64,000 nt of DNA from Oscillospiraceae bacterium. GTDB taxonomy: Bacteria > Bacillota > Clostridia > Oscillospirales > Acutalibacteraceae. Positions 47,810 to 64,000 of the stretch are shown here, piece by piece. The notes beneath the pieces are model-generated. The model did no database searches. It had not been told where the DNA came from and saw nothing but the letters and a program-made list of their open reading frames with translations. Positions within the stretch are counted from its first letter, which is position 1; the number at the start of each line of letters is the position of its first letter. The stretch spans positions 1-64,000 of the forward strand of contig JAFLUM010000005.1 of NCBI GenBank assembly GCA_022508805.1, given 5' to 3'. A program made the position numbers and the translations under genes.

Positions 47810-50169
47810 TTTTTACCCTCCAAAATGTATTTATAAACACCAATCGTTTGAATCTGACGCTCCAATTCTTGTTTTATCTGTTTGGCATCGTTTTCATAAC
47901 CCGCCCGATCAAGTGCATACTGTAACGCGGCCAGCCCAAAAGCACGACCTGACTGATAGCCTGTCTTTTCAACAATCAGAATGGCCTGCTTGGCCAGTGT
48001 GATGCCTTGACGGGTATCTCCTAAAGTAGTATAGGCCGCAGAGGCGGCAGCTAAGGCTTTTCCTAATTCAATATCATTATTACTGTCCTCATTCTGTTGT
48101 TTCGCTTTATTAAACCACTCTAATGCTTGTCCCGGATCAACAATACAAGTTGCCTCCGTCATATTGGTGAATAATTTTCCCATATAGGCTCGAAGTTCAT
48201 GCTCTTCTGCAATATGTAAAGCAGAGCGGTATATAATTTGAGCCTCGGAATACTGTTTTTGAAAGCGATAAATATGTCCTTTTATGCGAAAAAGTTCAAT
48301 CTGATCATACAAAGTAAGTTTGTCAGAACATAACAGCTGCTCCACAATTGATAAAGCTTCTTCGAATTCACCTTTTAAAAAAAGTAAGTCAGAATACTTC
48401 ATAAAGACAGTGTTATATATATGATCCGGTATCGTAGTTCTAATCAGAGCCATCTCATCTGTAAGATCTTTATATGCCTGAATGCATTCATCATAATGGC
48501 CCAGAAGATGTCTAACTTGGATTTTGAGATAGCGATACATATAGAACCATACGCCTAGATATTCCTGTTTCAAAGGATACTGTTCAATCAAAATTTCTGC
48601 TTGCTGCAACTGCCCAATCCTGCGCAAGCGAATCAATTCTGCAAAGACCGCCAGTGCCTGAATTGGCGTATTATGATTGAAAAATGTCGGATTCAAAATG
48701 CTGTGTATTTCATTCCAAAATCCCATATTAGCGTAACACTCAACAGCTTGTACGCATTTCTCTTGAATGCTCTCCATACATTTTGGTTCCGTATATATGG
48801 CATCTAGAACAGCAACTAAATATGGATAATTACCACCCGCCGGTTGCTGAATAATATAGTCTAATATACTCTCCAATATACTGTTCTTTCTATTTTGTTC
48901 CATGTGATCTTTGAGATGCAGCCGAACGCTTTCGTCCACCTTCCAAAGACTTTTTTGTCCCTCTACAGGCAAAAAAATTGATTTTTCAAATAGAATCTGA
49001 AGCTGTTCTACACTATAAATAAGCGATTGACGTTTTAAAAGCTCCATAGCGAAGGCTTCATTAAAACACTTAGGAATAGAAAGTATTTTAATTGCACATT
49101 TGTCTTTATCAGATAGATGGCGTATATAGCGATCTATCACCTTTTCTCCTTTTTTTAAGGAATTTAAATCAAAATTTTCACCGTCATTTATACTTGATTC
49201 ATAAATATCCACACACATATCCAGATATAACGGAACTCCTCCGGCTCGTTGTGCAATCGTTTCTACAATCTCAGTGTCTGTTATTGGCACTTGATTTAGA
49301 AACCATCTGCAATCTTCAATGGATAAGTTATCTAAAAGGTGCTGATTCAAATAATCATTCCATTCACGATCTTCTTTATCCCAACGTAACCGATCTCTAG
49401 AAGCAATTACAATTCGCAAAATGTCTGATGACAGAAACAGTTCTCTTAGCCATTCCTCTCGCTCAACAGATGGTGTTCCGCGTTCTGTTCGCGCCAATAA
49501 ACTTTCGTATGAATCCAAAAACAGCACATGTATATGCCCTTTGGTCGCTGCATAGGAAATACACAAACCTAGATAATATGGTAACCGTTCAAAAATTTCA
49601 AACTCATTCAAATTTATCAGTTCAGCGATTTCTTCCTTATATTTAGTGCGGAATCTTAAATCTTTTATTAGAGAGATACATTTATTCAGTGCAGCCGTGG
49701 GTATGCAGGCAGAAGCAGTCCCCAAACTAATTATCTCATTCAAAACATCCACTATAGGAGAAGACAGCATTTGATTTTTACTTAAAATTTCATCGACTGT
49801 CATTTTTGCTTTTGCACAATATTGTAATAATGCATAATCAAACAAACCGCAGTCCCCATGAATACCGTTCCGAATTGCCATCAGGATATTAACCGGATTT
49901 GCATAGTCGTAAGCATCCAGGCTGATAAATATGTTGTGGAACACATACGGCTTTACAGATGAATAGACCTCCGAGGATTCAAATAAGAGCCCTTTAAGCA
50001 ATCTTGATTTTCCGATTCCGCCCTTGCCGTAATACACTACAATTTCTTGAGGAATTACGTCCATTTTCTGCACGCTATTAAGAAATACAGCCCTAGGCTC
50101 TACACGGTCGGTAAAGATTCTCTGTGCTTTAAATCTTTCTTTTTTCTTTGAAAATTTACTCTGCAACAT
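47806..50169 (-). CDS. STAND-type NTPase with C-terminal helical (TPR-like) repeats
   Basis: A 787-aa putative signalling NTPase. Walker A GKGGIGKS is at residues 48-55; the Walker-B-like strand HVLFLDSYESLL and a sensor RIVIASRDR follow, as in AAA_16/NACHT-like STAND proteins. Residues 450-780 form helical hairpins: LLFLKGEFEEALSIVEQLL, IYRFQKQYSEAQIIYRSAL and AAYTTLGDTRQGITLAKQAI read as TPRs. There is no obvious N-terminal effector domain, so the co-translated oxidoreductase may be the output. AAGGAGA precedes the ATG. Codon use is AT-rich, unlike the genes to the left. Confidence 0.82.
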   Translation of the reverse strand: MLQSKFSKKKERFKAQRIFTDRVEPRAVFLNSVQKMDVIPQEIVVYYGKGGIGKSRLLKGLLFESSEVYSSVKPYVFHNIFISLDAYDYANPVNILMAIRNGIHGDCGLFDYALLQYCAKAKMTVDEILSKNQMLSSPIVDVLNEIISLGTASACIPTAALNKCISLIKDLRFRTKYKEEIAELINLNEFEIFERLPYYLGLCISYAATKGHIHVLFLDSYESLLARTERGTPSVEREEWLRELFLSSDILRIVIASRDRLRWDKEDREWNDYLNQHLLDNLSIEDCRWFLNQVPITDTEIVETIAQRAGGVPLYLDMCVDIYESSINDGENFDLNSLKKGEKVIDRYIRHLSDKDKCAIKILSIPKCFNEAFAMELLKRQSLIYSVEQLQILFEKSIFLPVEGQKSLWKVDESVRLHLKDHMEQNRKNSILESILDYIIQQPAGGNYPYLVAVLDAIYTEPKCMESIQEKCVQAVECYANMGFWNEIHSILNPTFFNHNTPIQALAVFAELIRLRRIGQLQQAEILIEQYPLKQEYLGVWFYMYRYLKIQVRHLLGHYDECIQAYKDLTDEMALIRTTIPDHIYNTVFMKYSDLLFLKGEFEEALSIVEQLLCSDKLTLYDQIELFRIKGHIYRFQKQYSEAQIIYRSALHIAEEHELRAYMGKLFTNMTEATCIVDPGQALEWFNKAKQQNEDSNNDIELGKALAAASAAYTTLGDTRQGITLAKQAILIVEKTGYQSGRAFGLAALQYALDRAGYENDAKQIKQELERQIQTIGVYKYILEGKK

Positions 50170-50371: not shown

Positions 50372-51022
50372 TCATTTCCTGCTTTTATGATCATCGTCAA
50401 TGTCTTTTGCCCAAGCGTCGCTGATTGGCACATTAGCACGCATGGCGCATACATTTTGAGAAACAGTATCAAATACTACCCGTGTGCCCTGACTGTCCGC
50501 AGTATAGTCAACAGCGCGGTTTCGGTCTATTCCGAAGCGCTTAGCCGTTTGCACCGCATCGATATTTGCTCCGATGAACAGAAATTCCCAGCCATATCTT
50601 TCCTTTTGGCGCTCGATCATCCTTTTCACTTCATCGCTGCTGTAGCGGTGACTTGCGTTCTCCATTCCGTCTGTTGTAATGACAAACATAATATGCGCAG
50701 GCACATCCTCGGGACGGGCATATTTATGGATGTTTCCGATGTGGTGTATTGCACCGCCGATGGCATCAATAAGTGCAGTACAGCCGCGAACGGTATAATC
50801 GCGGTCAGTCATCTTTGGAATATCAGTGAGCTTTAGGCGGTCGTGAAGCACCTCGCTGACATTGTCAAACAGTATGGTTGATACGTAGCACTCACCGTCC
50901 TGTTTTCTCTGCTTTTCGATCAGTGAATTGAATCCGCCGATGGTATCGCTCTCTAATCCTGCCATAGAGCCGCTGCGATCGAGAATAAATACCAATTCAG
51001 TTATGTTGTTTGTGTTTTTCAT
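50372..51022 (-). CDS. Von Willebrand factor A domain protein (TerY-like)
   Basis: A 216-aa protein that is essentially one VWA domain. The MIDAS metal site is intact: DRSGSMAG near residue 15, a Thr in GCTALIDAIG, and TTDGMENAS. It resembles TerY-type VWA proteins encoded in bacterial stress and conflict gene clusters. The start is the ATG at 51022 behind GGAGG. It is last in the leftward island operon, 82 nt after the macro-domain gene. Likely a metal-dependent adaptor for the other proteins (inference). Confidence 0.85.
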   Translation of the reverse strand: MKNTNNITELVFILDRSGSMAGLESDTIGGFNSLIEKQRKQDGECYVSTILFDNVSEVLHDRLKLTDIPKMTDRDYTVRGCTALIDAIGGAIHHIGNIHKYARPEDVPAHIMFVITTDGMENASHRYSSDEVKRMIERQKERYGWEFLFIGANIDAVQTAKRFGIDRNRAVDYTADSQGTRVVFDTVSQNVCAMRANVPISDAWAKDIDDDHKSRK

Positions 51023-51104
51023 TTGTGTTACCTCCGATAAATTCATTTTGTGAGTTTATTATAATAAATTTACCGAAGTCTTTGGTCGCATAAAAAGCGA
51101 CAAA

Positions 51105-52118
51105 TCAGGCGCCCAGCAGACTTTGATCAAAGGCGAACAGAGCCTCATTTATCTCAAAGACATTATAATTACTGTTCGTGATGAAATACTCGATTATAAT
51201 ATCGAATTTATTGCTATGAGAAAGGGCAAAGCCCGCCTTCATCAGCATATCCTTGGTTTCCTCCAAGCTTAGCTCTAAAGCAATAGCAAACGCTATCGCC
51301 GTTGTTTTGCTTGGATGATAGTGAACATCACTGCGTATCTTGGAAAACAGCTTTCTGTCCACATTCGCCTTTTTATAACACTGACTGTCTGTCATACCCT
51401 TTTCGTCGATTTTACGAAGTAACATTTCAGAAAAGCTCTCGTCGATAGTACCCAGCGCGCTCTCCAAATCGAGGGGCTTTTGTGCGGCAGTCGGCAAAGA
51501 AGCAGCCTGCGGATGTACTCTTTCCATCCCGTAAAGCGGCTGACTCATCTGCACTGCCCGCATTCTTTCAAGACGGGCATCCCTGTGCCGATCAACATAA
51601 CGGTCGTCTATGTACGATTTGATCTCCGAAAACAGTTTTTCGCTTATTTGATACGCCGCTTTATCGAAAATCACCATATACACCAGCATATCGTTCTCCA
51701 AAAGAAACGAACTGATAACGTCCATAGCCACCTTCAGCGCCGGCGCCTTCGGATAGCCGTATACGCCTGAGGATATAAGCGGAAATGCAACGGACCCACA
51801 GTTATATTCTTTAGCAAGCTTCAAGGATTCCCGATAGCAGGATTCCAGCAGCTCCTTTTCGCCGTTATGACCGCCCTTCCATTTAGGTCCGACTGTATGG
51901 ATCACATATTTGCAGGGCAAATTGTATCCGCCTGTTATCTTTGCCTGCCCTGTTCTGCATCCGCCCAACCTCATACATTCAAGCAGAAGTCCTCCGCCTG
52001 CCGCTTTGTGAATGGCTCCGTCAACGCCGCCTCCACCAAGTAAAGTTGAGTTAGCCGCATTGACAATGGCGTCACATTCTATTTTTGTTATATCGTTCCG
52101 TACGATCTGCAGGGGCAT
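51105..52118 (-). CDS. Macro-domain (ADP-ribose-binding) protein with C-terminal HTH-like domain
   Basis: A 337-aa protein. Residues 1-165 are a macro domain: NDITKIECDAIVNAANSTLLGGGGVDGAIH, GYNLPCKYVIHTVGP and PLISSGVYGYP, all in the ADP-ribose pocket. It is closest to the O-acetyl-ADP-ribose deacetylase type. Residues 240-337 (SQCYKKANVDRKLFSKIRSD, SKTTAIAFAIALELSLEET) look like an XRE-like helical domain found after macro domains in Firmicutes. It follows the TIR gene by 17 nt. A macro protein beside a TIR NADase suggests sensing or removal of an ADP-ribose product. Confidence 0.88.
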   Translation of the reverse strand: MPLQIVRNDITKIECDAIVNAANSTLLGGGGVDGAIHKAAGGGLLLECMRLGGCRTGQAKITGGYNLPCKYVIHTVGPKWKGGHNGEKELLESCYRESLKLAKEYNCGSVAFPLISSGVYGYPKAPALKVAMDVISSFLLENDMLVYMVIFDKAAYQISEKLFSEIKSYIDDRYVDRHRDARLERMRAVQMSQPLYGMERVHPQAASLPTAAQKPLDLESALGTIDESFSEMLLRKIDEKGMTDSQCYKKANVDRKLFSKIRSDVHYHPSKTTAIAFAIALELSLEETKDMLMKAGFALSHSNKFDIIIEYFITNSNYNVFEINEALFAFDQSLLGA

Positions 52119-52135
52119 TCAGTATCCCTCTCTCT

Positions 52136-54124
52136 TTAATAATACTCGACCACGCCTTTGATTCCCTCCGGAACATATTGCTCCGTTAAGTTCACTATAT
52201 CGGATGATGCGACAAATTCCGTGCGATATTCCCCAAGCTTGCCTTTTACTTCCACCTGCTTATCCAACGGACAGTCAACGATCTTAACAGCGCTGTATTC
52301 ACAGTCGGAAAGGGCGGTAAAATCGATACCGTCACTGTAATCCAAAATCAAACCGTATCCGTTAGCGGCATATAACACGTCATAATTATCAATGATAGCG
52401 CCGTGCAGGTTCAAATACTTATACCCCGATGCGGTTTTTAGATTTATACCCCTTATATCGGTTTCCGACAGATCAACAGTTGCTTTTTCCGACTCGTCGA
52501 ATGATATTGTCCCGTCTTTGGATGTTTCTCTCAAAGGGTTTGCTGCAAGATCAAGATAAGTCAGATTGTCCTTTCCCTCCATACCGGATATTGATCCGAT
52601 AAGATTATTCTCTGCCGACAGCCCTTTAAGCTGTGTGCATCCCGACAGAGGCTGCAATGACTCAACAAGATTGTTATCTATGTTCAGATACGTCAAAGTC
52701 GCACAGCCTGACAGTGCGCCGATGTCACTTACAAGATTGTTTTTCAAATACAGATTTCTAAGATTTTCAGACGACTTTGCAAGAACCGAAATATTGTCTA
52801 TTTGATTATCGTTTAAAAACACGAAACGTAAAAGGGTCGTATTTTTTAAAGCATCAATAGTTGTAATACCGTTGCTTCCGGCCTGTATTTCTTCGAGTTC
52901 AATACAATTCTCAAGTCCCTCTAATGAGCTGAGCTTATTACCGTTTACGCACAGCGTTTTAAGCCTTGTGCAAGCTGACAGCGGCATTAAATCGTCAATG
53001 CCGTTGCCGTTCAGGCTTACGATTGAGAGCGCAGGGCACGATGCCAAGCTGTCAATGCTTTTTATTGAATTATTGTCGGCATACAGCTCGGTCAGTTGAC
53101 TGAACTCCGAGAGCATATCAACATCCGAAACGGACGTGTTGCTTATATTTAGCTTTTGCAGCGTATCAGCCACCTCGGACAATTCGTCCAAAGAGTTCAG
53201 CGCCTTGTTCCCGCTCAAATCAAGATTGTACAGTCGAGTCAAAGCGGCATAATCTATGCTTTTTAACTGTTTTTCAGACAATTCGCAGTCCGACAGTCTG
53301 AGAATTCCCAGCTCGGGAAATGAAAGGAAGTCCATATCAACGTCGGGTAACGTACAATTTTTTAATTCGATCCAGTCAGGATTTTTAAGCTTTGAAAAAT
53401 TATTTATGTCCTTTTCGGTCAATTCGACATTCTCAATACGAATGCTGTACGCACTTTTTTTGATTTTTTCTCCTGCAATATTGACATAGGACATTTTTAT
53501 TATCAGCGTGACGGCGCAAATCAGGAATATTACCGCGGCCGCAACAATGCCTAATATGCACGTACGCTTGCCTTTTTTGCTGCTATCGTGCTTTTTAACG
53601 GGTTTTTGTGACTTTTTATGAGATTTTTCTCTTTTTGCCGTCGCAGCCTCGGTTTTGATTTTTTCTTCGCCGTTTTCGGGAGCTTCTTCAGCATTCGGAA
53701 CAGGTTCTGTATTATTGATTCCGATAATTGCCTTGATCTCGCGAATCATTTTCTCCATCGCTGCCGATTTATTTTCATACGCGGCATAACGCTGAACGTT
53801 CGATAGATAGAAATTAAAATCGTCCTTTAAAGCACAGTTTTCCAGCATAAACGGCATTACGATCTTATTCCCGTTGATAGCCTGATCCAATTCCCGAGGC
53901 ACCCATTTGGATAATTGTGCTTTTTCAGACAAAATCAAAACAAAAGCCTTGCATCCGCGAATAGCCTGCGGGATCTCGGCAGCATAGCTTGAACCTCCCG
54001 TGATGGACATCGGTGCCATCCAACAGGAAATTCCGTTCGCTTCCAATATGGATTTGACCCAATTGGCATCGTCGAATTCTTCTGCTTTATAACTGATAAA
54101 AACATCCTTAGTTTCCACAGGCAT
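52136..54124 (-). CDS. TIR - transmembrane - leucine-rich-repeat protein
   Basis: A 662-aa protein. Residues 1-140 are a TIR domain (DVFISYKAEE, CWMAPMSITGGSSY, and LSKWVPREL, where Glu78 corresponds to the NADase catalytic glutamate). A Lys/Ser-rich linker leads to one membrane segment (ILGIVAAAVIFLICAVTLIIK, about 190-211). Beyond it lie about a dozen leucine-rich repeats of the LTYLNIDNNLVESLQPLSGC type (250-560). The topology places the TIR inside and the LRRs outside, like a receptor. AGAGGG precedes the ATG; it is 8 nt from the channel gene. Predicted activity: NAD+ cleavage on ligand sensing. Confidence 0.92.
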   Translation of the reverse strand: MPVETKDVFISYKAEEFDDANWVKSILEANGISCWMAPMSITGGSSYAAEIPQAIRGCKAFVLILSEKAQLSKWVPRELDQAINGNKIVMPFMLENCALKDDFNFYLSNVQRYAAYENKSAAMEKMIREIKAIIGINNTEPVPNAEEAPENGEEKIKTEAATAKREKSHKKSQKPVKKHDSSKKGKRTCILGIVAAAVIFLICAVTLIIKMSYVNIAGEKIKKSAYSIRIENVELTEKDINNFSKLKNPDWIELKNCTLPDVDMDFLSFPELGILRLSDCELSEKQLKSIDYAALTRLYNLDLSGNKALNSLDELSEVADTLQKLNISNTSVSDVDMLSEFSQLTELYADNNSIKSIDSLASCPALSIVSLNGNGIDDLMPLSACTRLKTLCVNGNKLSSLEGLENCIELEEIQAGSNGITTIDALKNTTLLRFVFLNDNQIDNISVLAKSSENLRNLYLKNNLVSDIGALSGCATLTYLNIDNNLVESLQPLSGCTQLKGLSAENNLIGSISGMEGKDNLTYLDLAANPLRETSKDGTISFDESEKATVDLSETDIRGINLKTASGYKYLNLHGAIIDNYDVLYAANGYGLILDYSDGIDFTALSDCEYSAVKIVDCPLDKQVEVKGKLGEYRTEFVASSDIVNLTEQYVPEGIKGVVEYY

Positions 54125-54132
54125 ACCCTCTT

Positions 54133-56277
54133 TTAATGATTACTGAATACTATCAATTTATCCTTTTCATCAAGCTCCACGGTGATTTGCGACTGATCTC
54201 CGCTGAACAGGAACATACGGCCGCCCGGCTTTACATATCCCAACGCCACCGTGGGATTATACACACCTGTTTTAAGCGATACATCTATAGACTCCTTGTA
54301 CACAGCGCGTATAAATTCTTCCGCGGTGCACTTTTTCGGTATTTCATCAAACAGACGGTTCACTTTCTTAGTATATATTTCCTTGCTGTTATAGCCGTCA
54401 GAGTCATCCTCATCATATGTCAATATATCCGTATAGAAATCAAACAAAGCGTCTTTTTCGCCTATTTGTGTGATCATTTTACTAATGTATCTGTTGCTGA
54501 TAACAACATTATTGACACTGTAGCTGTTGACAATATCGTGGTGCTTAGGATCAATTATCTCAACGATAACGTCTATGCTTTCGGGGTCAAACTCAGATTC
54601 GTTATCCTCTTTTTCTTTGATAATATCCTGTACATAAATGAGATTTGCCAAAGCGTTGGCGTCTATATCCTCATTCAGCGCCATATCATCGGAAAGGATC
54701 AAAATACTGGTATCCTCATTATTAGCTTCAACGAACTGTTTTATTGTATCACATATTTTTTCCCTATCATATATGCTTGCGGGAACCGTGTCGACCACAA
54801 ACGGATATTCCTTATAGAAATCCATTTTTTCAAGATTTTTCTGATCGTCGATTACGACTATCCGAAGTACCTCGTCATCGCCGTTTTTATATTGCCATTC
54901 ATTACAGAAAGCGGCAAAGCCCTGCATAATATCGCGGCATTTGCTGTTATGTCCTAAAATTATAACGTTTTTGTTTTCGATCCAATAATTTTCATTCAGC
55001 TTTACGGCATAATCCGATTTTGAAATACGGCTGACGGTATGTATGTCATTCTCTGACTCCGCAGAAAAATAGTGATACGCCTTATCGCCGTATGTCATAT
55101 ATGTCAGCGGAATTGCATGTTTATGGTCACGCATATATTCGGGGATAAAATCCTTATCCGCCATAACTTCATGCTGTTCCGTAAAGAACGCAGCTCCCTT
55201 ATTTGAAAACAGCTCCTTATAAACAAGATTGAGTTCGGGCATAAGAGAGAATTGTGAAAGTATCTGTCCCAGTATCTGATTGACTCTGACAGGGATAATA
55301 TTGCATTTTCCCTTTTCTTCGTCGCTGCGAACCTTTCTTTGAATGATTTTGTCAACCAACCCATAGGTCCAATCATCAGTTATTTCAACAATTATTCTTT
55401 GATTATCGTTTGAGTCCGCTGCGGCGGTTATGTCGGCAACCTGCATAAGCGTTTTAACCGTTTGGGAATTTCCGCGTTCATGCTCCTCCATACGCTCTCT
55501 GGTTTCAAATTTACAGACAGTGTTGTTAAAGTCACTGCCTAAGATTATAACGGTTTTTGCCTGCTTTAAGGAAATATCATTCAACTGCTTTGATGAAAAA
55601 ACATCTCCTTCTCTGACTATAACGGTAATTCTGTTGCGCAAGCGTTCCTTTCTGACCGTTAAAAGTCTTTTTATAAGCGGCAGCTTCTTACAGCGCTTTT
55701 GAAGCTTGTCGTTTTCACGGGCAACCGTGTCGGAAAGACGTTCCGCGATCTCTTTTTCAACTTCATTTTTCCTTCTGTTGACCAAAACTACGACATTTTG
55801 CTTTTCATTGCAGTACAGCAGATCATTGACGATCTCAGACGCACGGGTATTCCAGTTAAGAATAACCACATGATCGGACATATGCAGCTTTCTTGCGCCC
55901 GCATTTGAATTCTCGATGAAATTTGAGATGTAATTGGTTAAATAACCGATAACTGCGCCGGTAAATGAGATCATTCCGATAAAGATGATAACCAAGCACA
56001 CAACAACAAGTGCAACCTTCGCCTCACCGATATCCGCTACAACGAATTGTATGCAGCCGGCATCCAAAATCATTGTTACCGTACAAAATGCCGCCTCTAA
56101 AAAACTCATTTGCTCGGTTCCCGAGAGAGCCATATTGCTGATCACGACTGCGGCAATAAAAAAGAAAAATACGTTAAAAAGTAAAATGGCGGCCAAAACT
56201 ATCTTTGCCGGATTTTTAGCGATTTGAACGCTGAGCCACTCTTTTATCCGTTTTACAAAAGCAATATTACTGAACAT
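54133..56277 (-). CDS. CASTOR/POLLUX (DMI1)-like ion channel with NAD-binding-fold domains
   Basis: A 714-aa membrane protein. Two membrane segments (KIVLAAILLFNVFFFFIAAVV and ALVVVCLVIIFIGMISFTGAV) bracket a pore-like loop with TMILDAGCIQF, whose DAG matches the ADAGNHA-type filter of plant CASTOR/POLLUX channels. Then SDHVVILNWNTRASEIVNDL begins a first RCK-like Rossmann domain, and ENKNVIILGHNSKCRDIMQGF begins a second. The family consists of cation channels gated through cytosolic RCK rings. AAGGATA lies before the ATG. It is immediately upstream of the TIR-LRR gene, and the nucleotide-binding fold makes gating by an NAD-derived molecule plausible (inference). Confidence 0.85.
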   Translation of the reverse strand: MFSNIAFVKRIKEWLSVQIAKNPAKIVLAAILLFNVFFFFIAAVVISNMALSGTEQMSFLEAAFCTVTMILDAGCIQFVVADIGEAKVALVVVCLVIIFIGMISFTGAVIGYLTNYISNFIENSNAGARKLHMSDHVVILNWNTRASEIVNDLLYCNEKQNVVVLVNRRKNEVEKEIAERLSDTVARENDKLQKRCKKLPLIKRLLTVRKERLRNRITVIVREGDVFSSKQLNDISLKQAKTVIILGSDFNNTVCKFETRERMEEHERGNSQTVKTLMQVADITAAADSNDNQRIIVEITDDWTYGLVDKIIQRKVRSDEEKGKCNIIPVRVNQILGQILSQFSLMPELNLVYKELFSNKGAAFFTEQHEVMADKDFIPEYMRDHKHAIPLTYMTYGDKAYHYFSAESENDIHTVSRISKSDYAVKLNENYWIENKNVIILGHNSKCRDIMQGFAAFCNEWQYKNGDDEVLRIVVIDDQKNLEKMDFYKEYPFVVDTVPASIYDREKICDTIKQFVEANNEDTSILILSDDMALNEDIDANALANLIYVQDIIKEKEDNESEFDPESIDVIVEIIDPKHHDIVNSYSVNNVVISNRYISKMITQIGEKDALFDFYTDILTYDEDDSDGYNSKEIYTKKVNRLFDEIPKKCTAEEFIRAVYKESIDVSLKTGVYNPTVALGYVKPGGRMFLFSGDQSQITVELDEKDKLIVFSNH

Positions 56278-56320
56278 TAATATCCTTCTATCATTAAATT
56301 ATTTGCACTGTCATAATGAA

Positions 56321-56356
56321 CAAACAGCGGCATATTGTCCGCTGTTTGTTTTTTTT
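56321..56356 (+). terminator. Hairpin with T-tract on the plus strand
   Basis: CAAACAGCGG-CATATTGT-CCGCTGTTTG followed by TTTTTTTT on the plus strand. No plus-strand gene lies upstream. On the minus strand it falls between the small zinc-finger gene and the channel gene, where it may modulate read-through. Confidence 0.5.
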
Positions 56357-56365
56357 AAAGTCTTA

Positions 56366-56617
56366 TTAGAATATATCTCTTTTAAACTCGTCAAGAGACT
56401 GACCAAAAGCAATGGCCAATGCGTGCTGCTTTTCCGCACAGTCCTTGCAAATGATCTGCTCATCATCGTTAAGAAGGTCAGATACAATATTGGGCTCATA
56501 ACCTGCACCGATAAAGAACTTTCCGCAATCGTCACAGGTGTGTGCAAGCTTGGGCACAAAGACTACGGCCAAAACTACTACAAGTACAACCGCAACTATA
56601 GGTGCAATTTTTTTCAT
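56366..56617 (-). CDS. Small membrane-anchored zinc-finger-like protein
   Basis: An 83-aa protein with an N-terminal membrane segment (IAPIVAVVLVVVLAVVFVP) and a soluble tail with two CxxC pairs, CDDCGKFF and CKDCAEKQH, about 25 residues apart, likely binding one zinc. No family recognised. The pairs resemble those in the finger of the neighbouring large protein. It lies between the DA1-like gene and the channel gene in the island operon. Confidence 0.7.
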   Translation of the reverse strand: MKKIAPIVAVVLVVVLAVVFVPKLAHTCDDCGKFFIGAGYEPNIVSDLLNDDEQIICKDCAEKQHALAIAFGQSLDEFKRDIF

Positions 56618-56688
56618 GTTGACTACCTCTCTTTTAACATAAATAAAATATTTTGTTATTTGACTGAATTAAATTCTTTCAGTCAATT

Positions 56689-59600
56689 TTAACCGTCATT
56701 CGGTTCACTGAGCGTGATGGTGCCGCAAAATTGCGGATCAAGCGGCGTTTCCGTATTCATAAACGGAGTCGGCTTTGTCAGAACGGTTCCCTGTGATAAC
56801 GGATAGTTTGCTACGTAACGCAGGAATCCGTGTCCGTATTCGTCATCACGGAATGCAGTTATGAGCTCTTCACGCTTTGCTGTTGCAGGCTCATTGATGA
56901 GATAGGCATATTGGATCTCGACCCATTTTGCCATACCCTCGTAAATCTCAAGACGCAGATCTTTACCGTACTTATCGGTAATTGCTTTATCGTTCCAATT
57001 TAAATACTGCCATATATGAGTAAGCTCATGCGCCATTGTAAGCATGGACGCTACACGCGGCGAGCCGTTTTCAACCATCAGCGTATATCCGTGTCTGTCA
57101 CTGATGGCTACACCGAGAACTCTGCCGTCGCTCTTGGGCGTGGGGATAAACGCCTTGCCCAAGCGCCTATGAAGCCTCTTGGAGTTAACCATTTCCACCT
57201 TAATACCGGTGTTGATCTTTATTCCGTAGAAGGTCTCCATATTTCTCTTGACGTCCTCAAAGATTTTACGGAACTCCTCGCCTGTTTTGATGGCGGTTTT
57301 TCCGCAATTGAGGCATCTGTCTCTGCCGTCCGACAACGTCTCATATTCAACGCCGAAAATTTCGGCTCCGCAGAAATCACAATAGCGGGAACCGGACTTG
57401 GCGGGCTCAAACGTCGCCCCCACAAGATCTGCAATTTTCTTGCCGTCTCTGGCCTGCTTTAATGAGTTGTGCGCCATCCCCATTCCGGACAAATAATCAA
57501 GCGTTCCGGGCAAATCAATAAACGGCATTACGCTTTCTTGACCGTAAAGCATATAAAAACGCTTGTGATACGGCTTGCGTTCAACGGTTTTTATTTTTTT
57601 GACCACCTGCTCGTCTTCGGTAACATACGTTATTCCGTCGTCCGTGGGCTCTTCCGTCGTTTCTTCTGTCGGCTCTTCCGTTGTCGGCTCAGGCTCACTT
57701 TCCTCAGCTTCGCCCCCGGGCGTTACATCTGCATGTACCTCAGAAGCATTCTTTTCCCCGTCGTCACCATCCTCAGGAGAGATTTTGGAACCGTCTGAGG
57801 GCTGTTCAGCATCCGTGTCAGGCTGATCTTGAGTCCCGCCCTCTTCGTCGGAAGGCTCCACCGATATTTCGGCTTCAGGAGTACCGTCAGTCTCACCGAT
57901 TTCACCTTCGGTAACGGCAGGTTCCTCAGCAGGTGCTTCTTCCGCGGTCGGTTCGTCCGCCTTTTTCGGCTTTTTCTTAAATAATTTCTTGAACAGGCTC
58001 TTGATTTTATCGATTATCTTTTTAAAGAAGTTCCGAATCGCTGAGATCACTTTTTTGATCCCTTTCTCCTTCGGTTTCTCTTCACCTTCTACAGGTTCGG
58101 TGAAGGTGATCGGCGATTTTGGCTCCGGTGGAGGATTAAGGCTTAACTCCAGAGCTTCCGCATTCCAATCCAGATAATCGTGTATGATTTCAAATATTCT
58201 TTGGAGATTTCTCTCTACCGCTACCGTCAAACCGAGATCAAGCTGGCTGTCCTCAATGATGTAAATCGAATTGCTTTTGATCTCATAGCCATCCCCGTTG
58301 ACGGAATATGTAAGAGGCTTGACCTCCCCGCTTTCATCTAAAAATGAATCATCAGTAACGGCGCAGATATACGCCTGATTTTCCGCAAAAATCGTTTTGA
58401 ATACTTCATTGAAAAGTACGGCAAGGGTATATCGGATATTGTCATTTACTTTTCCGTCAAGCTCCGGCAATTCAATGCGCAGGATCTCTTTATTACGGTA
58501 AATTCGCTTGGGTATACCGTTCTTTTCGCCCTCAAAGGAAATATGCTTAGCCGTAGTAAAATCGTTATACCGTCCCATACGGTAATAGCCCGAGGTCGCG
58601 ACGCTTATATCCGCAAACTCTTTTACCACCTTAAGTCCTGCAATATTCTGCTGTGCGCCAATCTTTTCGGATGACCTTACGCCGTGGATAGTATATTCAC
58701 GGGTCTGTCTGTAGGTCGGTCGACCGGAAATATGGTCTGCGGCTCTGCGTACAAGTACCTGTCCGTCTGAGGTAAGATGCTGCATTTCATAATACTTGCC
58801 TCCGAAGGTAAAGAACTGTCCCGGCAAATATTTTTGATATATATGTCCTCCCAGCTCCGAGCCCAAATAATATCTCTGCCCTTTTTCATCCTCGGCAACA
58901 TAGCCGGCGGATTTAAGCTCCGACACACACATTGACAAAAACGCAGGATCTGCAATGGAATATACTGTTTCGGTTTTCCCGAGCTTTAAATTAAAGGACT
59001 CTTCCACTTTAATGATATGGTGGCTTATCTGAATATCATTGAGTATTAAATTCCTTGAATATACTTCATTTACAGCCTGTTCATAAGCTTCCGGCAACTC
59101 TGCCAGCTCCGCAACAGGCGCATAGCAGTGATATAATTCATACCAAAGCTGCTTTTTTAAATCGAAGATGTTGATCCCGATCAGAGAAAGCTCTTTTTCT
59201 AAAACCTCGGCGCTCACTGCATAGGTGCTCATCATCAGCATGAGTTTTAAAACAGTATTGCGGTTGCTGCGTACATAGTCCGCAACAATATACGGGATCG
59301 CTTTGGCGTCTGCCTCAAAAATAGAAGCGTTTTCTGCCATATAATCCTTTAACAGATATTCGGAAGAAATAACATTTACAAAGCCCTGTTCCGTGGCTCT
59401 GGTGGAAAAATCACGAAGGATCTCGAACATATTATATGCTTCGTCCTCAACGGTAAAATATCCGTTCTCCTCCACTTCTGCGCTCCAGAAATTCGGAGAT
59501 GTCAGGAAGCGTTCATCCATAGCCTCCTGAGAAGTGGGAAGACTTGCATATTTAGTCAAATCATAATAATACTGTTTATCGATCCAACGAATATCCGTAA

Positions 59601-61242
59601 CCGGAAAAGCCTCGCCGCCATACCATTTGGTCTTTGAAACCTGATTTTTAAGCGCCGCAAAAGAGAGCTCGGTGCCCATTCCCAAATAACGGGAAATGTT
59701 AGGAACGATTCGGTGATGCAGATAATCCTCATCTGCCTCCCAGCACATATATGACGAAGTACCCAAGTGCTTTTTGGTAGCGGATACCTCAGTGATGCTC
59801 GTCATAAGAATATGGGACATGGCATCGACAAGACCGTCGCAGTTTTTATCGCACAGGCAATATACTATGCTTTTATCCTCATCCGCTCTGCATTTCTTGA
59901 CGATCAGATTAAGACCGATCTGAGCGGTAGAAATCAGCTTTGAGGGCTCAAGGATAACAACGTAGCCCACCTTCTCAAGGAATTCCGAGTTAGCATTGTG
60001 CAGTTCAATATCATGTACATCGGATCTTGTAATAATACCGATGTCCAGATCCTGAGCCTCGGAATTCAGCACGCCGATATTCCACATAAACGGAATATTA
60101 GTCACTGCCGCGATTCCTTTTTCCAGCCAATCCTTTATATCATCCTCAATGGAATGTCTGCCCAATATGACTAAGACCTTTTGGTGACTGAGCAGCGTCC
60201 GATTCATCGGATAAAATGCATACGGGATCAAATCGTTATAAAACGGATTATTAAAAAGTATGCTCTTACCGTTAAGCAGATCCAGTGAGGAGTGAAGATA
60301 GTTGTGATCTATCGTCACACCGGTTTTATTCAAAGCTTTGATATATGAGGCAAAGTTGATAATTTTTTGATCCTCACTTTTTTCAAGCTCACGTACGATT
60401 TCATCCGTTGTTACATCATAATCCAAATCGTTGTTAATGCTTGTGTTTTCAGCAAGAAGCTTATCCTTGAATAGCGAGCGCAAAAACTTTCTCAGCAAGG
60501 AATAGTTGACGGTTTTATAAGCGTCCTCGTCCTCGCCCAAAACCTTACTGGAGTATTCTCTTTTGGTCAAGCCGTCAAGATAAAAATACAGCTCGCTAAC
60601 TATGATAATGCCGAAAACGGGGTAAAAAACAGATTTCAACAGACCCTCAAAATAGAATTTGCGGCTTACCATCATAAGTAACGCCGAAAGAACGATAGCG
60701 CTTATGTAAAAAACCTTTAACAGACTTCTGACCTGTACATAGTTTTCTTTTATGCACCATTTATTCCTTTCGGAGAAAAACTCATAAAAGTTTCCTGCGA
60801 TCTTAGTATGCAGGCTGCTGTCCTGCTTAACCGTTTTGGACATAATTCCGATGCAGATTTTCTTAAATGTCAAATACACTAATATAATGAATGCATTTGA
60901 TATAAAGAAAATCCAAAAAGTCAGGTTAAGGCTCTGTAGGAAGGAATTTATGAAGCTGGCTATTTGTATAAAAAGCGCACCGAGCTTCTCGGGCATCCAG
61001 GAAAATCCCGCTAAAAGCGATATCCATCTCGGGATATTCTTGATAAGCTTAAGCAGCCATTCGTTGATAGAATTCATCATCAGCATTGCCATAAAATCAT
61101 AGATCAACGCAATGACCGGCATAAAATACTGCTTACTGCGGTCTGATTTGGTAAGATTCACCTCATACCCTGCAAGACAGAGAATAACAAAAGGAAGAAC
61201 TGCCAAAAGAAGCTTGGCAATATCGATAATTGTCTCAATCAT
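56689..61242 (-). CDS. 1517-aa membrane protein with C-terminal zinc finger and DA1-like metallopeptidase
   Basis: The first ~220 residues hold about five membrane segments. Residues 250-1060 are a large cytosolic region I cannot assign; one stretch (YLPGQFFTFGGKYYEMQHL, about 820) faintly recalls helicase-associated modules. A Lys-rich helix and a Glu/Pro/Thr-rich linker (about 1080-1260) follow. C1288xxC1291 and C1310xxC1313 form a treble-clef/LIM-like finger, then comes a peptidase site: H1405ELTH1409 and probable third ligand Glu1435 in YEGMAKWVE. The order finger, LSDGRDRCLNC, FYGI, SPRVASMLTMAHELTH, EG parallels plant LIM-DA1 proteins. It overlaps the upstream gene by 8 nt. Confidence 0.8.
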   Translation of the reverse strand: MIETIIDIAKLLLAVLPFVILCLAGYEVNLTKSDRSKQYFMPVIALIYDFMAMLMMNSINEWLLKLIKNIPRWISLLAGFSWMPEKLGALFIQIASFINSFLQSLNLTFWIFFISNAFIILVYLTFKKICIGIMSKTVKQDSSLHTKIAGNFYEFFSERNKWCIKENYVQVRSLLKVFYISAIVLSALLMMVSRKFYFEGLLKSVFYPVFGIIIVSELYFYLDGLTKREYSSKVLGEDEDAYKTVNYSLLRKFLRSLFKDKLLAENTSINNDLDYDVTTDEIVRELEKSEDQKIINFASYIKALNKTGVTIDHNYLHSSLDLLNGKSILFNNPFYNDLIPYAFYPMNRTLLSHQKVLVILGRHSIEDDIKDWLEKGIAAVTNIPFMWNIGVLNSEAQDLDIGIITRSDVHDIELHNANSEFLEKVGYVVILEPSKLISTAQIGLNLIVKKCRADEDKSIVYCLCDKNCDGLVDAMSHILMTSITEVSATKKHLGTSSYMCWEADEDYLHHRIVPNISRYLGMGTELSFAALKNQVSKTKWYGGEAFPVTDIRWIDKQYYYDLTKYASLPTSQEAMDERFLTSPNFWSAEVEENGYFTVEDEAYNMFEILRDFSTRATEQGFVNVISSEYLLKDYMAENASIFEADAKAIPYIVADYVRSNRNTVLKLMLMMSTYAVSAEVLEKELSLIGINIFDLKKQLWYELYHCYAPVAELAELPEAYEQAVNEVYSRNLILNDIQISHHIIKVEESFNLKLGKTETVYSIADPAFLSMCVSELKSAGYVAEDEKGQRYYLGSELGGHIYQKYLPGQFFTFGGKYYEMQHLTSDGQVLVRRAADHISGRPTYRQTREYTIHGVRSSEKIGAQQNIAGLKVVKEFADISVATSGYYRMGRYNDFTTAKHISFEGEKNGIPKRIYRNKEILRIELPELDGKVNDNIRYTLAVLFNEVFKTIFAENQAYICAVTDDSFLDESGEVKPLTYSVNGDGYEIKSNSIYIIEDSQLDLGLTVAVERNLQRIFEIIHDYLDWNAEALELSLNPPPEPKSPITFTEPVEGEEKPKEKGIKKVISAIRNFFKKIIDKIKSLFKKLFKKKPKKADEPTAEEAPAEEPAVTEGEIGETDGTPEAEISVEPSDEEGGTQDQPDTDAEQPSDGSKISPEDGDDGEKNASEVHADVTPGGEAEESEPEPTTEEPTEETTEEPTDDGITYVTEDEQVVKKIKTVERKPYHKRFYMLYGQESVMPFIDLPGTLDYLSGMGMAHNSLKQARDGKKIADLVGATFEPAKSGSRYCDFCGAEIFGVEYETLSDGRDRCLNCGKTAIKTGEEFRKIFEDVKRNMETFYGIKINTGIKVEMVNSKRLHRRLGKAFIPTPKSDGRVLGVAISDRHGYTLMVENGSPRVASMLTMAHELTHIWQYLNWNDKAITDKYGKDLRLEIYEGMAKWVEIQYAYLINEPATAKREELITAFRDDEYGHGFLRYVANYPLSQGTVLTKPTPFMNTETPLDPQFCGTITLSEPNDG

Positions 61243-63262
61243 ATAGTTCCTCCCGCGTTAATGTTATCGCTTCCACGTAATCCACCGGAATATTGACTAT
61301 ATTTCCGGTTTGCATAAATTCTACTTTATTCGGAAGTCCGGAGTAAGGCATATCGTAATCATAATGCTGTGCAACGGTAAAATCATAGTTGTACGGTTCT
61401 GCATCCGTAACGGTTCTGTAGTTAGCAGGAACGATCTCCGCAAACAGTTCATTCGTTTGGAGCATACATTTCTCTATATCGTTTTTATGTAACTCCAAAG
61501 TATTGTATTTTTGTTTTTTGCCTACTTTCATATAGTTAAGCAAAGAATACTTTCGCATCACGTTGCAGGCATGACTGAGATACTCTGAAAACTTATTCAG
61601 ACCGTGTTGAATATCTGCCAGTATGCCATGCATCTGGGCATTAAAAGACTTGAACAGCTTAATCAGCCGATGCCTTAAAACAAACAGATAAACCAATCCT
61701 ACAAGGCTGAAAAGTCCCAAAACGATCAACGTCATAGCAATAGAAAACAAAACGGACTCAGATGTATTTATATTTCCGAAAATCAGCGGTAAAAAGCCTA
61801 TTAAATACGCTGTGACGGCAAAGAGTCCCACAAACAGAGTCTTTTTCTTTGACATTCGCTGACCGATTGTGTTACGCAGCTCTTTATCGGCATTTTCAAG
61901 CTTTTTCATACAATTTGCAGTGTCAAAAAGCCGGGTCGTAACGGTCTCTACCATTTTTTGCTCTTCGTCCAGCAAGTTAATTTCAATATCCTCTGTCTGG
62001 AACTCGTTCATTCTTAATGCCCGTTCATCTTCTATAACGGAATTTCGATGAAAACTGTTTTGAACCGCGGATTTCACCGCACGTCTCGGTTCACGCAAAA
62101 AGCGTGTGAATTTTATCAAAATGTCATGGTACTGAGAATCCCAAAATACATCTTCTTGCGTCGGGCAATCTCCTGACAGACCGATACCGCCGTACTGTGC
62201 AAACAATTCCTCAGTGTTAAACTCCGAATTTGTTCGTACGGGAATTACCACATCCGTCTCAAGCTCTTCTCTGACCGTCTTATAATCGATGGGCTGCTCT
62301 AATCTTTTGTCCAAGCTTTTGGAGATATTGTCTATTCTTATAAGACTTGCAACCAGCTTTGAATTGTATTGACGGAATAACTCACCGACTTTTTGAGGAT
62401 CCATCTCAAGCTTTATGTTATAGACTCTGTTTGCACGCAGTGCTTCGCCCGGATAGGGAGTACCTGCCAACAGTAAAATTAAAACAATAAAGCTGAAATA
62501 TGCCTTTTCGCTTCTTACACCGTTTTTATACGGCATATCATACAGTATATACCTCAAACGGTCGGGATACAGATTGTCCTGATAAAATTTTGAATAATCA
62601 AACTCCGTGTGCTCTTTCCATACAGTTTCAAAAATCTCCTGTTCGGAATTTTTTGAGCGTTCCGCTACAGCGACAACTGATTTTGGATAATTAAACAGTT
62701 CTCCGTCCGGTAAAAAGCATTTAGACAGCAGTTCATATTTATAAGCGCGATAACGGTCGATTTCAACCTCGAGCGCCGATAAAGACCGTTCTTTTAAGTC
62801 GGCGAAATACTCTGCATCTGCAACGTCCGATAAATCCTCAAGATAATCCGTTTGAGGTTTATTTTTCATTTGGGAACCGCACAGCCAAGCGGAAAGACGC
62901 ATTAAAGGATTGCTCATCGCCTTTTCACATGATGCTTTTTTCCGTTCCCTGAAGCTGAGTACTTCATCCACAGAGCTTAATTCGGACGGCAGATGCTCTG
63001 CCCCCACATAATCAAAAGGATTAAGCCTGTATGTATGCTCCTCTTCCCAGGTGAAGCTGTCGTTGATGATCAGCGCCTGCCATTCGTCTTGCCTATTGAT
63101 CAGACTTTTAAGCGTCGGTAATGCCTTATCCAGTGAATCTGCTTCAGTATTCCATGCGCAGAAAGCAACATCCTTGCTTTTTAACAAGGGCTTAATATAC
63201 ATATTATATTTTTCTTTGCAATCTGATATTATATGCTCATCGCAGATTACGACTGTCAACAT
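61235..63262 (-). CDS. Large membrane protein of unknown function in the TIR/DA1 island
   Basis: A 675-aa protein I do not recognise. The N-terminal ~110 residues alternate strands and helices (LTVVICDEHIISDCKEKY, WQALIINDSFTW) and could be a Rossmann-like or receiver-like domain. A hydrophobic stretch is near 255-270 (AYFSFIVLILLLAGTPYPG). Two clear membrane segments lie near 470-520 (LFVGLFAVTAYLIGFLPLIFG and VLFSIAMTLIVLGLFSLVGLV). The C-terminal ~150 residues are helical, then strand-rich. Its stop overlaps the DA1-like gene start, so the two membrane proteins are probably partners. Confidence 0.7.
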   Translation of the reverse strand: MLTVVICDEHIISDCKEKYNMYIKPLLKSKDVAFCAWNTEADSLDKALPTLKSLINRQDEWQALIINDSFTWEEEHTYRLNPFDYVGAEHLPSELSSVDEVLSFRERKKASCEKAMSNPLMRLSAWLCGSQMKNKPQTDYLEDLSDVADAEYFADLKERSLSALEVEIDRYRAYKYELLSKCFLPDGELFNYPKSVVAVAERSKNSEQEIFETVWKEHTEFDYSKFYQDNLYPDRLRYILYDMPYKNGVRSEKAYFSFIVLILLLAGTPYPGEALRANRVYNIKLEMDPQKVGELFRQYNSKLVASLIRIDNISKSLDKRLEQPIDYKTVREELETDVVIPVRTNSEFNTEELFAQYGGIGLSGDCPTQEDVFWDSQYHDILIKFTRFLREPRRAVKSAVQNSFHRNSVIEDERALRMNEFQTEDIEINLLDEEQKMVETVTTRLFDTANCMKKLENADKELRNTIGQRMSKKKTLFVGLFAVTAYLIGFLPLIFGNINTSESVLFSIAMTLIVLGLFSLVGLVYLFVLRHRLIKLFKSFNAQMHGILADIQHGLNKFSEYLSHACNVMRKYSLLNYMKVGKKQKYNTLELHKNDIEKCMLQTNELFAEIVPANYRTVTDAEPYNYDFTVAQHYDYDMPYSGLPNKVEFMQTGNIVNIPVDYVEAITLTREELYD

Positions 63263-63277
63263 TTTTTCATCTCCCGG

Positions 63278-63309
63278 AACGCTTTATTGCCTTTCGGCAA
63301 TAAAGCGTT
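63278..63309 (-). terminator. Perfect 14-bp stem hairpin with GAAA tetraloop
   Basis: On the minus strand AACGCTTTATTGCC-GAAA-GGCAATAAAGCGTT lies between the partial upstream gene and the 675-aa protein gene. There is no clear T-tract after it, so processing, mRNA stability or attenuation is as likely as termination. Confidence 0.6.
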
Positions 63310-63331
63310 TGTTCATAATGTCGTTTATTAA

Positions 63332-64000
63332 TCAGTTTATCTCAAAATTTGCCAGCCTGTCTTTGTATTTGAGCAAGTCGTTCCTTTTCAGCAATTTTCC
63401 GATTGCACTGCGTGTTGTATCAATAACATCATCAGAGAAAATTCCCGATCTCAGGCGATCGTTATTCTTCTTGTAGTTTTCAACAAGAAGATTAAACTGA
63501 TCTATCAAATAGAGTGCCACCTTTGCTTTTACGGAATCTTCATTTGAAGTGCATATTCTCATTTCGCTGGTTACCATTTCAATAATGGCTTCGATCATCG
63601 TTTTCATCTCAGCGTCATCCTTGCTCTGAACAGGCAAAGAATTGCAGTACATGAGAACAATTTCAAACAGTGAGATCTTGTCGTTTGCAAATTCATCATT
63701 TTCAAGGTTAGCGATTTTTTTGCGTGAAAGGGACTCAACAGCTCTGAAGAAATCCGATTCCTCATAAGAGGTAAAGCCGTTCATACGGTTTTTAAGGCGG
63801 ATGTCAGCTATATAATCACGCAATACCGACACAGCGAGACGGTCGAAATACAGTGAATTCAAAACCTCGTAAAGGATATCACATTTAGTGCCGTTGGAAA
63901 CCTTCAAATCAACCTTGTACTCATCCTCGTTAAGATAACGGTATACCTTATCATTGCGATCCTCATCGGAAATCGGATAGAGCTTGATACGGTCATAAAT
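63332..64000 (-). CDS. Unknown helical protein, N-terminus beyond right edge
   Basis: The frame remains open through position 64000, so at least 222 aa are seen and the start lies outside. The visible part is rich in charged helices (FDRLAVSVLRDYIADIRLKNRM, MIEAIIEMVTSEMRICTSNED, KVALYLIDQFNLLVENYKKNND) without membrane segments or recognisable catalytic motifs. It is upstream of, and in line with, the 675-aa membrane-protein gene (69-nt gap with a hairpin), so it is probably part of the same operon. An apparent TTG start at 63907 is only an internal codon. Confidence 0.7.
   Translation of the reverse strand: MYDRIKLYPISDEDRNDKVYRYLNEDEYKVDLKVSNGTKCDILYEVLNSLYFDRLAVSVLRDYIADIRLKNRMNGFTSYEESDFFRAVESLSRKKIANLENDEFANDKISLFEIVLMYCNSLPVQSKDDAEMKTMIEAIIEMVTSEMRICTSNEDSVKAKVALYLIDQFNLLVENYKKNNDRLRSGIFSDDVIDTTRSAIGKLLKRNDLLKYKDRLANFEIN

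Follow-up and report, generated by a model that had tools for sequence, protein, structure and literature searches.

Do the genes for a TIR receptor-like protein, a macro-domain protein and an ion channel, which lie side by side in an Oscillospiraceae bacterium (Clostridia; GCA_022508805.1, contig JAFLUM010000005.1), work together, and with which partners? The DNA analysed, called the window in the following, comprises the first 64,000 bases (C26:1-64000) of this 134,644-base contig; the host is characterised as a gut-type Clostridium. An original prediction for the window had combined eight leftward genes into one candidate NAD/ADP-ribose signalling or immune system. All eight open reading frames were recovered where they had been placed; the start and end of the island were set wrongly, and it runs further on both sides. 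The right-hand gene (63332-64000), regarded as an unknown partner, is actually the tail of a 1251-aa FtsZ/tubulin-like protein, a central gene that had been overlooked because the window edge cuts it. Two further co-directional genes are located on the left, and a gene for a secreted/transmembrane VWA protein lies beyond the window on the right, followed by the gene of an ATPase that we take, from our own reading of its sequence, to be SpoIIAB-like, and then by gapA on the opposite strand. The genes of the island are, from right to left:

C26:67106-69250, outside the window: secreted/transmembrane VWA core gene, 714 aa (VWA E=6.2e-4, below cut-off)
C26:63332-67087, minus strand: FtsZl1 (Tubulin_2 E=1.8e-52), 1251 aa, of which the window holds the C-terminal 222 aa (63332..64000)
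61235..63262, minus strand: core membrane protein P675, 675 aa, two TM segments and a long helix
56689..61242, minus strand: core protein P1517, 1517 aa, about five TM segments, predicted helicase-like fold, zinc site and HELTH peptidase motif
56366..56617, minus strand: small TM protein with CxxC pairs and a possible zinc site, 83 aa
54133..56277, minus strand: CASTOR/DMI1-like channel (profile match to PDB CASTOR)
52136..54124, minus strand: TIR-TM-LRR protein (Pfam matches TIR_2 and LRR_4)
51105..52118, minus strand: macro-domain protein with C-terminal extension (Pfam Macro)
50372..51046, minus strand: cytosolic VWA protein, 224 aa (DxSxS motif; VWA_CoxE below cut-off)
47806..50169, minus strand: P-loop/TPR protein, 787 aa (TPR matches; ATPase_2 below cut-off)
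46841..47809, minus strand: Gfo/Idh/MocA oxidoreductase (PF01408 E=1.3e-23), last gene of the island

A genome of the same genus (G004) lacks the block that separates an SPFH gene from the SpoIIAB-like/gapA genes. SPFH and gapA are about 1.8 kb apart there, with the SpoIIAB-like gene and two small open reading frames between them, and about 23 kb are missing. The flanks are apart in the five other relatives compared, so that the empty site is one case in six.

Homologues of P1517 are rare, being found in 4 of 59 relatives and in 6 of 391 genomes of the class, one of these six probably by chance. A scan of named genomes gave 121 relatives, of which the best 80 were kept; these correspond to 79 loci and, together with the window and the locus of genome G024, make up the 81 loci compared here with our own gene calls and profiles. 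The order VWA - FtsZl1 - P675 - P1517 was found in 66 of the 81 loci. Since it recurs in 63 of the 65 loci with at least 7.5 kb upstream, the arrangement is not due to chance; in the two that deviate, P675 was not called (L097) or was the only one called (L122). FtsZl1 ranks among the most divergent branches within the tubulin superfamily. Both a Tubulin_2 domain with GTP-loop and an adjacent VWA gene were found, as expected for this family; 69 of the 70 family members that reach 900 aa have the GTP-loop GGTGSG, and each of the 73 loci in which FtsZl1 was found has one such gene. The VWA metal motif is present in 62 of 65 secreted VWA core proteins, and the one on the window contig has a signal segment, a VWA-like region and a C-terminal TM segment.

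P675 is predicted to have TM segments at 476-494 and 511-529 and a long helix (AlphaFold2, pLDDT 86.6). The sequence of P1517 contains HELTH, CxxC..CxxC and about five TM segments, and no Pfam family matched it above its cut-off. Residues 1-1060 were modelled with AlphaFold2 (pLDDT 86.6), and the model is similar to MrfA (6znp; Foldseek E=3.0e-21) over about aa 280-1035. At the position expected for Walker A, NPFYxD is invariant (44/44 rows); the expected ATP site has no P-loop, and the ATP-binding helicase motif of MrfA/DUF1998 was not found there. HExTHxW is present in 63 of 68 proteins. P1517 models as a membrane-anchored MrfA/SF2-like helicase fold without ATP loop, joined to an acidic linker, a zinc site that is LIM-like and a peptidase with the HExxH motif. 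It had been described as a DA1-like metallopeptidase, and the LIM-like and HExxH motifs are indeed present; no DA1 family matched, however (Pfam E<=1; best PDB match E=0.68), and the likeness to DA1, judged from the sequence, is one of motifs. The core comprises a secreted, membrane-anchored VWA protein, a cytosolic tubulin-like GTPase, a long-helix TM protein and a multi-TM protein, in whose cytosolic part the predicted helicase-like fold without ATP loop is combined with the zinc site and the metallopeptidase. PADLOC has no family matching the core, and in NCBIfam none matched P675 or P1517.

The cassette following this core in the window has the order Zn protein - CASTOR-like channel - TIR-TM-LRR - macro - VWA - NTPase/TPR - Gfo/Idh. 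The TIR-TM-LRR architecture was borne out (TIR_2 E=3.5e-19, LRR_4 E=2.9e-33, one hydrophobic segment between them at aa 190-208); the positive-inside rule predicts the TIR domain inside and the LRR outside. A glutamate at the catalytic position is conserved in 21 of 21 TIR domains, including that of the window, and close relatives of the whole protein were found in four other loci (L058, L061, L071 and L114). The best PADLOC ThsB match to the window TIR is partial (E=1.1e-05).

The assignment of the channel as CASTOR-like was likewise upheld: a 15-row profile of its family matched plant CASTOR/DMI1 PDB chains (E=4e-7 to 1.5e-6; best CASTOR 6o7c, E=4e-07), the match covering the second RCK region with weak pieces elsewhere. 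Pfam gave hints below threshold (Castor_Poll_mid E=0.052). The protein is laid out as a TM segment, a pore-like segment and a second TM segment, followed by tandem RCK-like domains. In the pore-like segment LDAGCI, present in 17 of 19 channel proteins, replaces TVGYG, and no GYG was found in the first 150 aa of any of the 19. A tandem RCK ring with a pore lacking TVGYG is what the sequence suggests, as in CASTOR/DMI1. A channel gene lies within 10 kb of the core in 19 of 81 loci (16 downstream, 3 upstream). Its occurrence is not associated with that of TIR genes across the 81 loci (4 with both, 15 with the channel only, 11 with TIR only; Fisher p=0.74).

Outside the window, relatives of the locus carry another membrane protein, designated c1. 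This protein combines three hydrophobic segments with domains of the Rossmann/TrkA_N-like type (E=0.0054, below cut-off) and has an RyR domain at its C-terminus (Pfam E=1.5e-05, just under its cut-off; profile against a PDB RyR repeat E=9.1e-12). Neither NCBIfam nor PADLOC has a family that matched it. It was found within 10 kb of the core in 19 of 81 loci, some of which also have the channel; 18 of these genes are downstream, 17 of them in the core's direction. According to the available part of a preprint (PMC13232231), residues H75, W78, H100 and D117 of the phage protein RyDEP contact 2'/3'cADPR, which was bound by six of eight RyDEP relatives tested. Set against the positions given there, the same residues occur in c1 with the same spacing (+3, +25, +42): H566, W569 and D608 in 14 of 14 rows and H591 in 13 of 14. 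Across the 81 loci, c1 and TIR genes are associated (9 with both, 10 with c1 only, 6 with TIR only, 56 with neither; p=7.8e-4); with the tree taken into account, this association keeps its sign and is not significant (about 4 the same way and 0.3 the other way among 9 pairs, median p 0.125). Among 17 core-free c1 loci from the c1 search, a TIR gene is adjacent or one gene away in four (L164, L171, L182 and, with a weak match of 2e-5, L181); eight of the 13 without neighbouring TIR belong to two genera within one family. A TIR search added one more core-free pair of neighbours, L169. The c1 of the window genome is encoded on contig C28 (L170), with no TIR gene beside it.

The macro-domain protein was readily identified (Pfam Macro E=3.9e-46). 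When 19 loci of other genomes were inspected, its gene adjoined a VWA gene in 15. The 224-aa VWA protein, found in 29 of 59 genomes including its own, has the expected DxSxS motif, its Pfam match to VWA_CoxE staying below cut-off. Macro and small VWA genes plainly form an independent, widespread module. For the small zinc-finger membrane protein, the TM segment (aa 4-22) and the CxxC pairs are present, whereas the Pfam zinc-finger matches stay below cut-off; relatives of this 83-aa protein occur in 5 of 81 loci. The 787-aa P-loop/TPR protein is presumably STAND-like, by our reading of the sequence; a related protein is encoded in a single further core locus (L103), where its gene likewise precedes a Gfo/Idh-like gene. 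The eight genes hence do not form one conserved set, as the original prediction had assumed: macro and small VWA are a separate module, and the channel also occurs without the core in 4 of 5 other close homologues (G384, G190, G160 and G014, while the copy in G024 has the core alongside).

Such a collection might be explained by an insertion hot spot: the core would remodel membranes for a purpose of its own, and the TIR, channel, macro-VWA and NTPase genes would have landed behind it as passengers without functional ties. Most cassette genes were encountered once, and the independence of the macro-VWA module, the solitary occurrence of both channel and RyR protein and the absence of the whole block in G004 also fit this explanation. 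The frequency of TIR genes counts against it. Our own profile detected 21 of them in 15 of 81 loci, 16 of the 21 in the core's direction, and TIR_2 is the commonest Pfam family among the variable cargo proteins (12 of 124). As control served the same 33 genomes, chosen solely on the length of their contigs, because they are richer in TIR than the window's relatives (40 TIR_2 matches in 59 genomes). They contain 138 TIR_2 matches in 82.1 Mb, from which 1.3 matches are expected for their 33 core loci (0.77 Mb); at least 16 were found, an approximately 12-fold enrichment, and 11 of the 33 loci hold one or more TIR_2 (1.3 expected). The shared direction of 16/21 TIR and 17/18 downstream RyR genes also argues against passengers, as does the channel, which is present in 19/81 core loci, yet with close full-length copies in only 4 of 391 class genomes, its own included. 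The hot spot is considered the strongest competing explanation, though a rather unlikely one.

On a 48-row P1517 tree, the minimum number of state changes was 12 for TIR, 10 for c1, 10 for the channel and 2 for an EccC-like ATPase, which indicates repeated gain or loss for all of these except the ATPase of the EccC clade. The genes behind P1517 vary: of the 50 loci with at least 5 kb downstream, 24 have a channel, c1 or TIR gene in a contiguous cassette, 26 have none of the three and 10 have no cassette at all. Cassette genes behind the core have been gained and lost many times, the commonest being those for TIR proteins and Rossmann/RCK-type membrane proteins. The four-gene membrane machine is conserved, and TIR receptor-like and ion-channel genes are exchangeable additions to it. 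The predicted gathering of TIR and channel genes at P1517 homologues was found (at least 16 TIR_2 against 1.3 expected; channel in 19/81 loci).

The reading we favour, with a probability of roughly 0.45, is that of an accessory island of a clostridial FtsZl1 system, in which an envelope core is combined with a TIR-to-membrane-protein signalling cassette. The core would be attached to the envelope as an assembly driven by GTP, and would monitor or remodel the membrane. With its LRR outside and TIR inside, the TIR-LRR protein would convert an event at the envelope into a cyclic ADP-ribose signal or the breakdown of NAD+. A membrane protein encoded nearby would read this signal, by its RyR domain in the relatives; in the window version, the RCK ring of the CASTOR-like channel might read the ionic consequence. 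The membrane protein would then open an ion path, leading to growth stop or cell death, and the peptidase could cut a partner once the assembly is triggered. A machine around a tubulin-like protein may in this way use an NAD-derived signal to open a channel; we infer the signalling and defence roles of the locus. That a TIR product acts on the neighbouring membrane protein, as originally proposed, is favoured by the RyR-domain relatives. For the window itself the last step, an effect on the RCK ring followed by growth arrest, is the weakest, since the channel and TIR genes show no association over the loci compared (p=0.74).

Several observations count against the favoured explanation. The window has a CASTOR-like channel and not an RyR protein; 26 of the 50 loci with at least 5 kb downstream lack channel, c1 and TIR, and 13 of 17 core-free c1 loci lack an adjacent TIR gene. 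Neither core nor channel nor RyR protein has a PADLOC match, and the c1-TIR link is not significant on the tree.

A bolder form of the accessory-island reading, which we regard as doubtful, is a TIR-to-ion-channel immune axis of Clostridia. A TIR-made signal of the ADP-ribose type would be read by a membrane RyR domain, as a bacterial counterpart of cADPR and the ryanodine receptor; the RyR unit, or the CASTOR variant of the window, would be plugged into the FtsZl1 machine, and the helicase-like peptidase, dead for ATP, would decide on firing.

An ESX/type VII-flavoured export machine, with the cassette proteins as substrates or regulators and the TIR branch as a side variant, appears improbable. 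It is suggested by an EssC/EccC-like ATPase gene after the core in 10 of 81 loci (T7SS_EccC E=4.7e-21, below curated cut-off), six of which have small WXG100-sized genes, and by an ADP-ribosyltransferase gene (E=3.8e-28) that follows in G024. The WXG100 matches are weak (E=0.025), however, the window has no such ATPase, and since the trait changes only twice on the tree, the ATPase is one clade's variant. Least probable is a Thoeris-like pair in the window, in which the TIR makes a signal and the macro protein senses or clears it: a TIR with catalytic Glu does adjoin a canonical macro domain, and Thoeris effectors containing a macro domain have reportedly been found (PMC11204291), but across genomes the macro gene accompanies the small VWA gene and not TIR, a complete macro gene of the window family is missing from all other core loci (one 69-aa fragment at an end of L108), and the macro protein has no PADLOC match.

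The preferred reading, the FtsZl1-associated accessory island, gives FtsZl1 a concrete partner set, made up of a fixed clostridial core and interchangeable TIR, RyR and CASTOR genes. If a bacterial membrane RyR domain does read a TIR-made cADPR, bacterial relatives of the animal cADPR-RyR link and of the plant-symbiosis Ca2+ channels would occur together in a single genetic context. A description of the clostridial core with these add-ons was not found in the open-access papers searched; the searched terms are absent from the available part of PMC9503650, and the clostridial architecture was not found in those of PMC9871819 and PMC7159879.

Compared with known systems, the channel resembles CASTOR/POLLUX/DMI1 in its tandem RCK-like domains, the pore without TVGYG and the profile match (E=4e-07); CASTOR is described in the accessible text of PMC6697748 as a Ca2+ channel with RCK ring and no TVGYG. 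In contrast to these plant proteins, the window channel is bacterial, has two TM segments around the pore segment and is encoded behind an FtsZl1 core. As in Thoeris (TIR to cADPR to effector), a TIR enzyme adjoins a possible signal-reading partner; here, however, the TIR proteins have LRR/TM parts and a weak ThsB match, the partner is an RyR- or RCK-type membrane protein, and no ThsA-type effector was found among the nine window proteins (no ThsA model at E<=1). P1517 shares with MrfA, a DUF1998 SF2 helicase, the predicted fold of aa about 280-1035 and differs in its membrane anchor, the NPFYxD in place of the Walker A loop and the fused peptidase.

Closest are two kinds of predicted operons. 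FtsZl1/vWA operons were predicted to form a membrane-associated machine (Makarova & Koonin 2010, PMC2875224, as far as its text was available) and likewise have TM proteins and, next to a VWA gene, a Tubulin_2-type FtsZl1 whose C-terminal part is long. The partners named in that part of the paper are GTPases, protein kinases and OmpA-like proteins, whereas in Clostridia the core includes the membrane protein with predicted helicase fold and metallopeptidase, and TIR, RyR or CASTOR genes are added to it; the unnamed families there may include the 675- and 1517-aa proteins. The GAP1-N2 tubulin-vWA conflict systems, predicted to act near the membrane (Kaur et al. 2020, PMC7159879, in the portion available), share the tubulin with C-terminal extension, the TM/extracellular VWA protein, the occurrence in Firmicutes and the variable partners. 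Their Firmicutes versions have two tubulin genes, in contrast to one per locus here (73 loci), and in place of a GAP1/P-loop GTPase the core appears to have the helicase-fold peptidase protein; a P-loop pattern occurs in 1 of 77 P675 and 8 of 86 P1517 proteins, two of the latter in the first 1060 aa and neither at the expected site. Both kinds, the FtsZl1/VWA operons and the tubulin-vWA conflict systems, have been published as predictions, and the clostridial locus is a variant, with no P-loop GTPase partner, a single tubulin gene, a helicase-fold peptidase and the add-ons.

The FtsZl1 core (genes for a VWA protein, the tubulin-like FtsZl1, P675 and the 1517-aa membrane protein P1517) is followed in several loci by an EssC/EccC-like ATPase gene and by pairs of WXG100-sized genes (L008 5026-20000; L037, from genome G024; L113, L115, L116, L117 and L130). 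G024 additionally encodes an ADP-ribosyltransferase-like protein behind the core and the ATPase. This arrangement is confined to a single clade and possibly represents a type VII secretion variant linked to FtsZl1.

Other cassettes behind the core encode ClpP-like, TraG-like, TIR-Sel1, NTPase/TPR and Gfo/Idh-like proteins (L103 14882-21705) or a microbial PARG-type domain (E=8.7e-29) fused to an ADP-ribosylglycohydrolase (E=2e-62; L108 20742-22928). A transglutaminase-like domain is a C-terminal addition on P1517 relatives (L071 10001-15835; L061 10001-15913), while in L105, L119 and L132 it is a separate gene product with a signal-like N-terminus, implying opposite membrane sides for the two forms.

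Features of the window are:
50372-51046, minus strand, small cytosolic VWA gene
51105-52118, minus strand, macro-domain gene
54133-56277, minus strand, CASTOR-like channel gene
56318-56351, perfect-looking 13-pair inverted repeat
56366-56617, minus strand, gene of an 83-aa TM protein with CxxC pairs

The inverted repeat lies between the channel gene and that of the 83-aa putative zinc protein; the genes occupy one strand and its T-run the other. The small VWA gene directly downstream of the macro-domain gene (50372-52118) is likewise found in L197, L200, L201, L206-L209, L212, L214 and L215; the pair is stand-alone and widespread within the window's genus and order.

A TIR gene lies beside the gene of an RyR-domain membrane protein without any FtsZl1 core in L171, L164, L181, L182 and L169. 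This pair, for which PADLOC-DB 2023 gave no match, is a candidate two-gene TIR system.
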